DNA of 64,000 nt from the NCBI RefSeq assembly GCF_019711595.1, contig NZ_JAIGNR010000002.1, positions 124,001 to 188,000 on the forward strand. The letters are read 5' to 3'. Origin of the DNA: Qipengyuania sphaerica (GTDB taxonomy: Bacteria > Pseudomonadota > Alphaproteobacteria > Sphingomonadales > Sphingomonadaceae). The notes below the pieces were generated by a model, which saw nothing but the letters and a program-made list of their open reading frames with translations, did not search any database and was not told the origin of the DNA. Made by a program: the position numbers and the translations under genes. Shown here piece after piece: positions 5,044 to 8,948 of this stretch. Numbering within the stretch: the first letter of the stretch is position 1; each line of letters starts with the position of its first letter.

Positions 5044-6300
5044 ATGGTCCGCAAATTCCTCTATGTCGTCGCATTCGTGATAGTCGTCTTCATCGTCGGC
5101 GCGATTGCCCTGTCGATCTGGTCGCGAGAGGCCACCGAGATCGCATTCGTCCCGCGCGGCGAATTCGTCGAGCAGGAAGCGCTCGCCGCCAATGCCTATG
5201 AAGACCCGGACATGTGGTATTCGCGCCCCGGCCTCGGCATCGACGATCCGTCGCGTTACCAGCCCGCCGTGGCTCAGCCTGCGGTCGACCCGGCCGAGCA
5301 GGCACCTTCGCCCGATGCCCCTGCCGCCGAACAGAGCCTCGACGAGCCGGGCGCGATGGCAACCTCCGGATCTGTGGCAGGCGAGGCGGCCGAGGCTTCG
5401 GAAGTCCCGAGCTTTGCGGTGTTCTTCGTCCCCCCCACCAGCTTCCTCAAGGCAGGCGGCACGGCGTGGAACGCCACGCTGGACGACGCCACCACCAACA
5501 GCCGCGCGCGTACTTTCCTGCGCGGCCTTGCCAGCCCATTCAACCGGGCGGATGAAATCTGGGCCCCAAAGTATCGCCAGGCTGCGGCAGGTGCATTCCT
5601 GACCAACAAACCCGAAGCCCAGCAGGCGATCGACGCGGCCTATGCCGATGTGACGCAGGCCTTCGACTATTTCCTCGAGAGCGTGGACGAGGACAAGCCC
5701 ATCGTCCTTGCCGGACATAGCCAGGGATCGATCCACGTTTTGCGGCTGCTGATGGAGCATGCCTCGGAACAGGGGATGATCGACCGCGTGGTGGCAGTCT
5801 ACGCCATCGGCTGGCCCATTTCGATGGAGCACGACCTGCCTGCCCTGCCCCTGCCCGCCTGCGCCTCGGCCGATCAGACCGGCTGCATCATCGCCTATTC
5901 CGCATTCTCCGACGATGGCGATCCCGACTTCCTCAAGCGCCGCTATGAAGCAACGCCCGGGTTCGATGGCGAGCCGCGCGGCGAAGGGCCGATCCTGTGC
6001 GTCAACCCTCTCACCGGCGGAACCGGCGGAGAGGCCCCTGCATCCGCCAATCTCGGCACGCTCAAGCCCAGCGCAGACCTCAGCTCGGGCGAACTTATCG
6101 CGGGTGCCGTCCCTGCACGCTGCGACGAGCGCGGGCTTCTGCTGATCGGAGACCCGCCGGAAATGGGCGAAGGCGTGCTGCCGGGCGGCAATTTCCACGT
6201 CTACGACATCCCGCTGTTCTGGAAGAACCTGCAGGAAGACGTGATTGCCCGCGCCCGCGCACATACTGTCCGCGCGTTCGAGGCGCGCACCTCATCGTAA
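5044..6300 (+). CDS. DUF3089 alpha/beta-hydrolase-like protein
   Basis: A 418-residue protein with an N-terminal hydrophobic anchor or signal (residues 4-27), an Ala/Pro/Glu-rich linker at about 70-120, and a hydrolase domain with the nucleophile elbow GHSQG (Ser226). It fits DUF3089, a family of predicted lysophospholipase-like esterases typical of sphingomonads. The linker and anchor suggest a membrane-tethered periplasmic enzyme. It begins at the base after the upstream stop. The true substrate is unknown. Confidence 0.82.
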   Translation: MVRKFLYVVAFVIVVFIVGAIALSIWSREATEIAFVPRGEFVEQEALAANAYEDPDMWYSRPGLGIDDPSRYQPAVAQPAVDPAEQAPSPDAPAAEQSLDEPGAMATSGSVAGEAAEASEVPSFAVFFVPPTSFLKAGGTAWNATLDDATTNSRARTFLRGLASPFNRADEIWAPKYRQAAAGAFLTNKPEAQQAIDAAYADVTQAFDYFLESVDEDKPIVLAGHSQGSIHVLRLLMEHASEQGMIDRVVAVYAIGWPISMEHDLPALPLPACASADQTGCIIAYSAFSDDGDPDFLKRRYEATPGFDGEPRGEGPILCVNPLTGGTGGEAPASANLGTLKPSADLSSGELIAGAVPARCDERGLLLIGDPPEMGEGVLPGGNFHVYDIPLFWKNLQEDVIARARAHTVRAFEARTSS

Positions 6301-6764
6301 CCGACAATGCCCTCGAATATGGCGACGCGCTGTCCGAAGGCGGCGCGCTGCTGGGCTTGGACCTCGGCACGAAGACAATCGGGGTTGCCACCTGCGACGC
6401 TGGCTGGCGCTATGCGACGGCAGGCAAGACGATCTCCCGCAGCAAGTACACCAAGGATGCAGGCAAACTACGCGAGATCGTGGACGAACGCGGCGTGAAG
6501 GGAATCGTGATCGGCCTTCCCCGCAACATGGACGGGACCGAGGGGCCACGCGCCCAGGCCAGCCGCGCCTACGCCAAGAATCTCGCGCAAACCTTCGATT
6601 TACCGGTGCTTTTATGGGACGAACGCTGGTCGACAAGCTCGGCCGAGAGCGCCATGATCGGCCAGGATATGAGCCGCGCAAAGCGAGCCGAAAAGATCGA
6701 CAGCCACGCGGCTGCGATCATCCTGCAGGGCGCTATCGATGCCCTTGCGGGAGGTGGGATTTAA
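6294..6764 (+). CDS. ruvX: Putative pre-16S rRNA nuclease / RuvX (YqgF), atypical start
   Basis: RNase H-like protein of about 156 residues. YqgF-family members mature the 5' end of 16S rRNA and resemble Holliday junction resolvases. Motifs: LLGLDLGTKTIG with the first catalytic Asp, GIVIGLPRNMDG with the central Gly-Leu-Pro, LLWDERWST, and IDSHAAAIILQ near the end. The start is unresolved: between the upstream stop (TAA 6298-6300) and the GLDLG motif the frame has no ATG or GTG, and the only TTG (6357) would remove the first beta strand. I placed the start at ATC 6294, overlapping the DUF3089 stop; CTG 6330 is another option. Confidence 0.9.
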   Translation: MVTDNALEYGDALSEGGALLGLDLGTKTIGVATCDAGWRYATAGKTISRSKYTKDAGKLREIVDERGVKGIVIGLPRNMDGTEGPRAQASRAYAKNLAQTFDLPVLLWDERWSTSSAESAMIGQDMSRAKRAEKIDSHAAAIILQGAIDALAGGGI

Positions 6765-6782
6765 AAGGGAGAGGGTCGCCCA

Positions 6783-6920
6783 ATGCTGAGTTTCCTGAAG
6801 GTTTTCGAGGCCGAGCGCGCCGATATCCGCGCAAGCTGGCTGCTTTCCGCCCTCTTCCGCATGGCTGCATTTGCCGCGATCGGGCTGCTCTTCATCCTGA
6901 CGATCTACGCGCTCTGGTAA
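6783..6920 (+). CDS. 45-residue single-pass membrane miniprotein
   Basis: A short frame with a strong Shine-Dalgarno (gggagaggg) ending about 7 bases before ATG 6783. It encodes a short amphipathic N-terminus (MLSFLKVFEAERADIRASW) and one membrane segment at about residues 20-43 ending in IYALW. It is the last gene of the forward operon, 18 bases after ruvX. No known family is recognised. The strong ribosome site and clean hydrophobic segment argue for real translation. Confidence 0.6.
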   Translation: MLSFLKVFEAERADIRASWLLSALFRMAAFAAIGLLFILTIYALW

Positions 6921-6924
6921 GTCA

Positions 6925-7815
6925 TCAGAGCGTCGCGCGGCGCATCGCGGCTTCCTTGGCGACCATCAGGCTGCCCGACAGCTCGGCCTCTCGCCACAGC
7001 GCATCGCGCGTGTCGCGATCCAGCAATCCGCTACGCGCCTCGTAACTGGCCAGCCGCATCCGGTCGCTGGGGTGTGCCTTGCCGGCCCATTCGGCGAATG
7101 CGATCGCCTGTTCGCCGCCCAGCCCAACGGCGCAGCGCATGAAGCATTCGGTGGAAGTCGGGTTCAGGATACCGGTCACCGCATTGCTATCGAGGTCGAA
7201 GCCGTACTGGTCGCACCAGCCCTGCGATTGGTCGATATGCATGATGTTGAGCGAGACCGACATCGAAGGCGGCGGCAGCTGCGAATGGATGTCGAGATTG
7301 GCGCGGTAGAGCATCATCTTGCCCTCGGCGAGATTCGTCCGCTCGACGAAGCGCAGATCCGCCACTTCGCCGCGCCAGCCACTCACGCTCTCGTAATCGT
7401 ATTCGTAATAGTCGCTGCCATAGCCCGGGCCGAAATAGCCCACCGTAAGGAAGTTGAAATTGTGGTCGTGCGGGACTTCGTAGACGAAGGCCTTGGCCCC
7501 GCTCGAGCGGAAGCAACTCTCGTCCTCGCTCGGCCAGATGTTGGCGCGCAGGAAGCTGTTGGTGCTGGCACGCGACAAGACGATCGATTGCGGACCGTAG
7601 GAACTTTCGAGACCGGTGTCGCGAAAGCGGCGCTCTAGCTGGTCGACCAGCATGTCACCGAGGAATTGCCGGTCGTTTGCGAGACGTTTCAGTGCGACCA
7701 CACCATTTTCGAGCGAAACCTCGTCCGAAGGATCGAATGGCGTGTCTTCAAGCATCGCCATGCAATCACCGATGCCGTGCGCAAGGGTTTCGACCGAAGT
7801 AATCAGGCGGGGCAT
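6925..7815 (-). CDS. Unknown protein with cupin-like H-x-H motif, cassette gene 3
   Basis: A 296-residue protein not assigned to a named family. N-terminal third is helical and acidic. The central part (about residues 85-210) looks like a beta-sandwich with PHDHNFNFLTVGYFGPGY, a Tyr/Glu/Asp-rich strand (YYEYDYESVSG) and, after LAEGKMMLYRANL, DIHSQLPPPSMSVSLNIM. The H-x-H followed by an acidic strand and a later His resembles the metal site of cupin dioxygenases (inference). The C-terminal about 80 residues look like short helical repeats. ATG 7815 has Shine-Dalgarno ggagag and overlaps the end of the upstream gene by 13 bases, so it is coupled to it. Confidence 0.7.
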   Translation of the reverse strand: MPRLITSVETLAHGIGDCMAMLEDTPFDPSDEVSLENGVVALKRLANDRQFLGDMLVDQLERRFRDTGLESSYGPQSIVLSRASTNSFLRANIWPSEDESCFRSSGAKAFVYEVPHDHNFNFLTVGYFGPGYGSDYYEYDYESVSGWRGEVADLRFVERTNLAEGKMMLYRANLDIHSQLPPPSMSVSLNIMHIDQSQGWCDQYGFDLDSNAVTGILNPTSTECFMRCAVGLGGEQAIAFAEWAGKAHPSDRMRLASYEARSGLLDRDTRDALWREAELSGSLMVAKEAAMRRATL

Positions 7816-8765
7816 GCTTCGCTCTCCAGTTGGGCGAGGACAGGATAGGCTTCCACGAGTTGCGCGCGCAAAGCTCCGGCTTGGGCGGCAAGCTCATCGG
7901 CCGGATCGGCGGCAATCCGCGACAGCACGCCAAAACCGGTCGCCGTGTCGAGCGCGAGGCATTCGCGCAGGGACTGCCAGCGGATATGCGCTCCGCCTTC
8001 CATGGCGAGTTCGGCGAGCAGCGGCGCGGCATCGCTCCGGCCCATGCGCCCGAGCAGCGCCATCGCCATTTCGCGCTGGCTTTCCTCGCGCGTCCCGCTG
8101 GCACTGTGCACCAGCCGACCGTCGGCAAGCGAGAATTGTCGCGTAGGCTGCGCGTTTTCGTCCGTCCGCGCGAGCCGCAGCATGACGAGCCGACCATGGA
8201 CCTGTTCGATGTATCGGACCTGTCGGCGCGCATCGCAGGACAGCGTTTCACCAGCCACCAACCGGCGCACTTGCTGGTCGAGCGCCGCCACGCCGTCGCG
8301 CTCCTCGAGCAATTCGGTGAAACGGAAATCGCCCGCCCCTTCGAGTACGATTTCATGGCAGTCGCTGCCCGAGAATGCGACCGTATCCGGTCTCTGCTCG
8401 AGCGCATCGTAAGTAAGCAGGGTTAAGGTTGCACGACCGGTACGGCCTAGCTGGATCATCGCCAGTCCGTTGGACTGCTGGTGGCGCATGGGGACCTGGC
8501 CGAGCGGATACCGTGCGAGCGCGGCGGTCATCGGTTCGAACAGGGCGTCGAGTATCGCGTATGCTTCTTCGCGGCTCGAAAGAAGGCGCGCCAGATCGGG
8601 GCAATCCCCAAGCGCCCTGCCCTGACCAAAGGCAGAAAGGTCTGCCCGCGCCTTTGCGAAGACACCATGGCGCCATTCGTCGCGAACCTTTTCCAGCGCC
8701 AGCTGCGCTTCACGCTGCGGGGAAAGATCTCCCCGCAGCGAAGCGATTTGCGGATCCATGCGCAT
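7803..8765 (-). CDS. Unknown protein, partner of the H-x-H protein, HEAT-like C-terminus
   Basis: A 320-residue protein, function unknown. It opens with a helical segment (SPQREAQLALEKVRDEW), continues into a predicted beta-rich core (residues about 100-225), and ends in helices resembling HEAT repeats (MAMALLGRMGRSDAAPLLAE onward). By eye the core follows the same order of strands as its downstream neighbour (YDAL..., HEIVLEGAGD, RRLVAGETLS, GRLVMLRLAR) but has no H-x-H. A second ATG lies two codons in (8759). It starts 18 bases after the small peptide gene and overlaps the next gene by 13 bases, so the three are one transcript. Confidence 0.68.
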   Translation of the reverse strand: MRMDPQIASLRGDLSPQREAQLALEKVRDEWRHGVFAKARADLSAFGQGRALGDCPDLARLLSSREEAYAILDALFEPMTAALARYPLGQVPMRHQQSNGLAMIQLGRTGRATLTLLTYDALEQRPDTVAFSGSDCHEIVLEGAGDFRFTELLEERDGVAALDQQVRRLVAGETLSCDARRQVRYIEQVHGRLVMLRLARTDENAQPTRQFSLADGRLVHSASGTREESQREMAMALLGRMGRSDAAPLLAELAMEGGAHIRWQSLRECLALDTATGFGVLSRIAADPADELAAQAGALRAQLVEAYPVLAQLESEACPA

Positions 8766-8783
8766 CGCTTTGAGCCTCTTCGA

Positions 8784-8948
8784 TCAGAAAAGCAGTTCGG
8801 AAGGCTGAAGTTCATAGATGTAGGTCATGATCACCACGATCCGATCGTCCACCGTCGGACCTCCGCTCGTATTGAGGAGCGAGCCGAAAAGGCCGGTTGC
8901 GGTGTCGAGTCCCGGAAGGCTCGAAAGGTCGATCTTGGGCAGGTTCAT
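8784..8948 (-). CDS. 54-residue peptide, possible RiPP-like precursor
   Basis: A short gene preceded by a good Shine-Dalgarno (agggaga, about 7 bases before ATG 8948); an upstream in-frame ATG at 8990 lacks one. The peptide begins MNLPKIDLSSLPGLDTATG, has a Gly/Leu/Ser-rich middle (LFGSLLNTSGG) and a C-terminal hydrophobic core DDRIVVIMTYIYE. It has no Cys, no signal peptide and no double-glycine cleavage site followed by a charged core. It is the first gene of a three-gene reverse operon with two larger unknown proteins. Being the small, first, well-translated member next to a putative metalloenzyme makes a modified-peptide precursor the leading idea, but a small structural or regulatory protein is possible. 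Confidence 0.65.
   Translation of the reverse strand: MNLPKIDLSSLPGLDTATGLFGSLLNTSGGPTVDDRIVVIMTYIYELQPSELLF

Follow-up and report, generated by a model that had tools for sequence, protein, structure and literature searches.

The window, i.e. the whole stretch of 64,000 nucleotides of Qipengyuania sphaerica DNA that was analysed, belongs to a genome of 2.84 Mb and carries three closely spaced genes that encode the peptide P1 and the proteins P2 and P3 (Table 1). P1 and P2 are separated by a gap of 18 nt, and P2 and P3 overlap by 13 nt. This is the layout that a first-pass annotation had described, with a Shine-Dalgarno sequence ahead of the small gene; its statements that the peptide is free of Cys and that the last protein contains an HDHNF segment were likewise borne out, the segment being located in P3. 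None of the three products gave a Pfam match over the cut-off, and no transporter, protease or regulator gene lies inside the window cassette, as had been noted; this absence does not extend to some remote relatives, which have regulators and exporters. The Pfam-annotated neighbours are RuvX, DUF3089, an AI-2E transporter and an S26 signal peptidase on one flank, and two thioesterases and a penicillin-binding protein on the other; the signal-peptidase and AI-2E transporter genes lie 2-4 kb from the cassette on the opposite strand.

Table 1. Features of the three-gene cassette, with their positions in the window
Feature	Positions	Strand	Basis
P1, gene of a 54-aa peptide, putative precursor	8784..8948	-	Conserved ORF, purifying selection, order kept in 29/29 relatives (L003-L031)
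AGGGAG, ribosome-binding-site-like, upstream of P1	8956..8961	-	7-nt spacer to the ATG start
P1 leader-like block, residues 1-23, MNLPKIDLSSLPGLDTATGLFGS	8880..8948	-	P12 in 110/112, G22 in 111/112; kept in remote relatives
P1 conserved core-like block, residues 34-46, DDRIVVIMTYIYE	8811..8849	-	D35 in 107/112; residue 45 Y, H, W or F in 112/112
P2, 320 aa, CDO-like cupin fold with HEAT-like C-terminus, lacking the His triad; probable pseudoenzyme partner	7803..8765	-	
P3, 296 aa, CDO-type cupin with 3-His site and helical C-terminal domain; probable peptide oxygenase	6925..7815	-	
P3 codons H116-D117-H118, putative metal ligands 1 and 2	7462..7470	-	75, 74 and 75 of 75
P3 codon H177, putative metal ligand 3	7285..7287	-	74/75

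A 45-aa membrane-like ORF at 6783-6920 (+) is convergent with P3; it was rejected as a fourth part of the cassette, being present in 7 of 169 loci and having no Pfam match. A viral origin was also rejected (6 pattern matches in viral_contigs with 0 relatives, and no PHROG match at E<=0.1), as was an anti-phage defence system (no PADLOC model match at E<=0.1).

The synteny check proposed in the first-pass annotation gave a clear result, in that P1, P2 and P3 keep the same order and strand in all 29 of the best-scoring relatives of the family search besides the window; in one of these loci (L015), P2 is spread over two frames. Among 298 genomes of the window's family, P3 was found in 104 and P1 in 105, the latter by a search at E<=0.01 with its own profile, which includes rows from some of these same genomes. 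Both are present in 100 genomes and neither in 189 (Fisher p 2e-67, uncorrected for relatedness). In the four genomes with P3 only (G155, G199, G237 and G288), a candidate peptide was picked by eye upstream of each, and the peptide is hence conserved as a coding gene where P3 is kept, 100 times out of 104 by profile and in the other four by eye. The five genomes with P1 only comprise weak matches in G051, G185 and G264, an intact P1 with a faint P2 trace and no P3 in G232, and a P1 fused with a piece of P3 in one ORF in G293. In wider samples, which have genomes in common with one another and with the family sample, P3 was found in 77 of 246 genomes across the order, 5 of 385 across the class (4 of them from the window's family) and 9 of 249 across the phylum (7 from the window's family, with one of the matches reaching no better than E 7.7e-4). 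A scan of the named genome contigs of one genome collection gave 368 matching stretches that encode a P3 relative, the best 80 of which were retrieved; the closest named relatives are from Qipengyuania.

The cassette is an accessory unit, gained or lost whole and sometimes decaying. Within the genus, P3 is absent in 5 of 21 genomes, window included, and in three further genomes (G402, G414 and G384) a broken P3 lies beside an intact P1. In the corresponding loci (L190, L191 and L198) P3 is split or truncated, and P2 is damaged too in the first two. The ruvX and thioesterase genes adjoin in three of the five genomes without P3; in the other two, ruvX was not found within the 1.5 kb retrieved. 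Fragments and duplicate loci were removed before the neighbourhood analyses of 150 and 165 loci. Two gene clusters of the thioesterase side are present at 94 and 89 of 150 loci and one of the ruvX side at 69, in a set that is still partly redundant (copies of the same genome) and for which the gene caller counts some antisense ORFs as genes; many near-group cassettes thus occupy one chromosomal place. Many remote-group loci are situated elsewhere. In G162 (L220/L221), the N- and C-terminal parts of P2 are found about 40 kb apart, which indicates that a large piece was inserted or the region was rearranged. The peptide and P3 are 40 kb apart as well and, since P2 is divided between both places, the arrangement is read as an interrupted cassette. 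No convincing precursor was recognised in L189 and L241; the former (G770) holds, at 5775-7593 (-), a P2-P3 pair from outside the window's family with no precursor of the usual type recognised.

The peptide analysis drew on 112 unique sequences, admitted by a match to the near-group profile at E<1e-6; several of them have an over-long N-terminus. Cys is absent from 109 of these, the other three having one. Conservation is confined to residues 4-23 and 34-46, with a variable linker and tail; apart from the residues listed in Table 1, L14 is kept in 107 sequences, position 35 is acidic in 111 and position 45 is Y in 103, H in 4, W in 3 and F in 2. Among 12 sequences of the Qipengyuania group (66 pairs), pN/pS was 0.37 overall, and 0.24, 0.59, 0.22 and 0.71 for residues 1-23, 24-33, 34-46 and 47-54, respectively. 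Purifying selection therefore acts on P1 in two blocks, residues 1-23 and 34-46. In the C-terminal part, residues 34-46 are conserved, whereas the linker and the last eight residues vary.

In remote relatives, the first block is retained, roughly as IDIxxLPxLxTxVGxxGS, and the second is swapped for other hydrophobic segments; most of these remote peptides were chosen by eye among the ORFs before P2. Positions 35 and 45 are not retained in them, so that no common target residue is evident. The agreement between core type and P3 phylogeny is incomplete, on a tree with low supports whose tip labels for core type were assigned by locus number. A short ribosomal precursor gene linked to an enzyme-like gene, and a conserved N-terminal leader followed by a core that differs among relatives, are features of RiPP (ribosomally synthesized and post-translationally modified peptide) systems, and both were found here, the variation lying mainly between lineages. 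Judged from the alignments, the block pattern of P1 is leader-core behaviour. Within the near group, however, core and leader are equally constrained, which favours a conserved product over an antibiotic shaped by an arms race.

No relationship of P3 to a known family was apparent by sequence search: neither Pfam nor NCBIfam gave a match at E<=1, the CDO_I family (PF05995) matched 0 of 75 aligned members at E<=1, a comparison with two CDO_I proteins by hhalign was not significant, and a search of the PDB by sequence gave no match with P3 alone and seven with its profile, all at chance level. The alignment of 75 rows was made from 78 sequences by leaving out L025, L038 and L068 and by putting the window sequence in the place of L002. 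The AlphaFold model of P3 (pLDDT 94.6) is a cupin of the thiol-dioxygenase type followed by a helical, HEAT-like tail, in agreement with the cupin-like character initially proposed for the last protein. Its best match in the PDB is the mercaptosuccinate dioxygenase 8vni (Foldseek E 6.7e-9; Z 12.9 and rmsd 3.6 over 168 residues by VIA-align). Among the matches listed, CDO, MDO, PCO, ADO and ergothioneine dioxygenase match the model at Z 10-13, over P3 residues 8-219; ergothioneine dioxygenase stands lower in the fold ranking, as do other cupins such as 3-hydroxyanthranilate dioxygenase.

Three nearly invariant His residues appear in the model in the order expected of metal ligands, HxH...H (Table 1), so that neither ground for refutation named earlier, a missing peptide or a third protein with no predicted metal site, applied; D175 and R171 are also kept in all 75 members and Q179 in 74. 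By order and conservation, H116, H118 and H177 are putative metal ligands. The 3-His site is described as strictly conserved in the thiol dioxygenase superfamily in the accessible part of PMC8503633. The kinship of P3 to this superfamily, which rests on the predicted fold and the order of the His residues, thus comes with a putative 3-His site and without the CDO_I sequence match. P3 also differs from thiol dioxygenases by its extra C-terminal HEAT-like domain, by its pairing with a probably inactive homologue and by a co-encoded peptide that has no thiol. The Arg60 of CDO is probably not retained in P3, as far as a weak alignment can tell; R90 was dropped as its equivalent, since the sole alignment (E 0.08) places P75/Q76 there. 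According to the part of PMC8503633 that is accessible, this substrate-binding Arg is not kept in ADO either, and both ADO and PCO act on proteins. The Ser-His-Tyr set of MDO, as given in the accessible part of PMC10966181, reads S188-N190-M192 in P3 by eye. Taken with the model, P3 is a probable peptide oxygenase.

The two larger proteins had both been called unknown. This still holds for P3 with respect to family databases, but the homology between P2 and P3, and the fold that they share, had been overlooked. A comparison of the two profiles by hhalign gave a probability of 95.3 (E 2.3e-8, 243 columns), and the model of P2 (pLDDT 95.9) matches 8vni with Z 10.6 and rmsd 4.0 over 166 residues. 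The P2 alignment holds 76 rows (77 sequences without L039, with L002 replaced by the window); HEAT_2 is matched by 54 of the 76 members at E<=1, the P2 of the window doing so at E 0.015 only. The columns aligned to H116, H118 and H177 of P3 are occupied by H137, I139 and R184 in the P2 of the window, and H137 is common to 30 of the 76 members. Hence, P2 is probably a pseudoenzyme partner of P3.

Clusters in the remote group are more elaborate than that of the window. An OmpR-type winged-helix protein is encoded less than 400 nt after P3 in 16 of 165 partly redundant loci, all from the remote group, and also in L206, which is outside this count. All ten of the OmpR-type proteins scanned match Trans_reg_C; the receiver domain is mostly weak or absent and is full in L055. 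Exporter genes were found in three clusters (L203, L228 and L238/L239), all of them remote, which come from the window's family, an Alteromonas plasmid and a genome of another class. In L203, the order is peptide-P2-P3-peptide-peptide-P2-P3; behind these lie genes for HlyD, an ABC ATPase, two permeases of the FtsX/MacB type and an ABC exporter, with a 4-nt overlap between P3 and HlyD, and an ECF sigma factor is encoded upstream. On the Alteromonas stellipolaris plasmid CP013927.1, where P3 is 40% identical, the order is Yip1-HlyD-ABC-MacB-two peptide ORFs-P2-P3-ABC ATPase-ABC2 permease. The cluster of G1191 (L238/L239) comprises three P2-P3 pairs, candidate small peptides, HlyD, MacB, ABC-2, an S49 peptidase and a Trans_reg_C/PD40 protein. 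In L203 and L228, the peptides outnumber the P2-P3 pairs. Two of the three clusters have a Yip1-HlyD-MacB block in common and are therefore not independent of each other. In the G941 family, which belongs to another class than the window, 6 of 147 genomes carry P3, G1191 among them; a Yip1-HlyD-MacB block common to both suggests that this family is related to Alteromonas. In L242 (6863-7024) and L243 (6550-6711 of its reverse strand), P2-P3 is preceded by the peptide MKELTLEDAEFVSGGG, which has what we take to be a leader motif of the GG type; an NRPS gene lies upstream in L242. The exporter and GG-leader clusters suggest that some lineages export a ribosomal peptide.

The best-supported reading of the cassette is RiPP-like peptide oxidation, with the modification being putative: P1 would be the precursor, and P3, an oxygenase with the CDO fold, would form a two-protein modification complex with its inactive paralogue P2. 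We put the probability of this reading at about 0.6. Residues 1-23 of P1 would be the leader recognised by P2 and P3, and the remainder, including the conserved acidic-hydrophobic-YxY-E/D segment, the part acted on. P3 would bind P1 as a non-haem Fe(II) (3-His) enzyme and use Fe(II) and O2 to oxidise a non-thiol core residue, for which position 45 is the first candidate in the near group and D35 the second; P2 would serve as a scaffold or leader-binding partner. Leader cleavage may follow. Some lineages would export the product through HlyD/MacB or ABC systems; in that of the window, it would either leave the cell through genes outside the cassette or stay inside. The RiPP-like or peptide-hydroxylation system first suggested is thus favoured by the conservation of the peptide and by the His site of the cupin, but the window cassette itself offers neither an exporter nor a protease gene in its support. 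This absence counts against the RiPP reading, as does a core that is as constrained as the leader, unlike the fast-changing cores of antimicrobial peptides.

To our knowledge, the thiol dioxygenases characterised so far oxidise sulfur. With a window peptide that contains no Cys, thiol oxidation of P1 can be excluded from its sequence, and the chemistry of P3 would differ from theirs; this check covered the co-encoded peptide, as distinct from free small thiols. The nearest folds to P3 mostly act on small thiols, and P1 could on that account be a small subunit that stays permanently with P2 and P3 in an enzyme for a small molecule, where its hydrophobic C-terminus would contribute a strand. The conservation of both P1 blocks, the near-general lack of Cys in the near group (109/112) and a gene order that is constant in 29 of 29 relatives would suit such a subunit. 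Its core would hardly be expected to change type among lineages while the site of P3 stays constant, nor would several peptides per P2-P3 pair (L203, L228), a GG-type leader (L242/L243), export genes or an intact P1 persisting in three copies with a broken P3; a permanent subunit is considered improbable. The same three copies (G402, G414 and G384), together with G232, where an intact P1 stands with a weak P2 trace and no P3, argue against P1 being a small toxic hydrophobic peptide that P2 and P3 neutralise in the manner of a toxin-antitoxin pair. A hydrophobic C-terminus, a tight operon and a unit that is present or absent as a whole are what such a pair would show; there is no PADLOC match and a His site that hardly varies points to catalysis, which leaves this possibility very unlikely.

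An oxygen- or redox-sensing relay is made plausible by the fold of P3, whose closest relatives include the O2-sensing PCO and ADO, and by the neighbouring regulators. The oxidation of P1 by P3 would scale with O2 or iron, and the modified P1 would control gene expression, much as PCO and ADO oxidise the N-terminal Cys of regulators. The OmpR-type proteins after P3 in the remote group (the 16 of 165 loci and L206), a near-group core conserved as for a signal and a cassette without an exporter fit this proposal. The window cassette contains no regulator gene, however, P1 has no N-terminal Cys, export genes are present in three clusters, and P3 is missing in 5 of 21 genomes of the same genus and broken in three more; on balance, the relay is unlikely.

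Among known systems, RiPP-like peptide oxidation by P3 finds a parallel in the biphenomycin-type clusters with PbsQ/BpmG. According to the accessible part of PMC12257519, PbsQ is a cupin-like hydroxylase that acts on a RiPP precursor; a cupin-fold oxygenase on a ribosomal precursor is a likeness that is putative for P3. The same source relates PbsQ to JmjC proteins and places it downstream of an MNIO and an arginase, in a pathway that also has a B12-rSAM enzyme (PMC12257519), whereas the cupin pair P2-P3 is the sole enzyme set in the cassette described here. Accessible descriptions of RiPP systems in which an MNIO (DUF692) works with a partner also include a short precursor, an iron-dependent oxidative enzyme and a partner protein. 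P3 is a cupin, which is a different fold from that of MNIO, and P2, its partner, is homologous to it. The literature seen, with thin coverage of subscription journals, gave no description of the P1-P2-P3 trio. There is a real chance that the RiPP-like cassette represents a new class. In the full form of this claim, a heterodimer of a CDO-fold 3-His iron oxygenase and its dead homologue would catalyse the non-thiol oxidation of a leader-bearing peptide, e.g. at position 45, from Sphingomonadales to an Alteromonas plasmid; we regard it as tentative, at somewhat less than even odds.

If true, the combination of a fold relative of thiol dioxygenases with a Cys-free peptide would be new chemistry on the CDO scaffold, carried out by a class of RiPP enzymes that is invisible to Pfam and NCBIfam. 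The enzyme-pseudoenzyme pair P2-P3 would also be a clean test case for the part that a dead homologue plays in peptide recognition. Since 368 stretches in one collection encode a relative of P3, the product may matter to a common group of bacteria.
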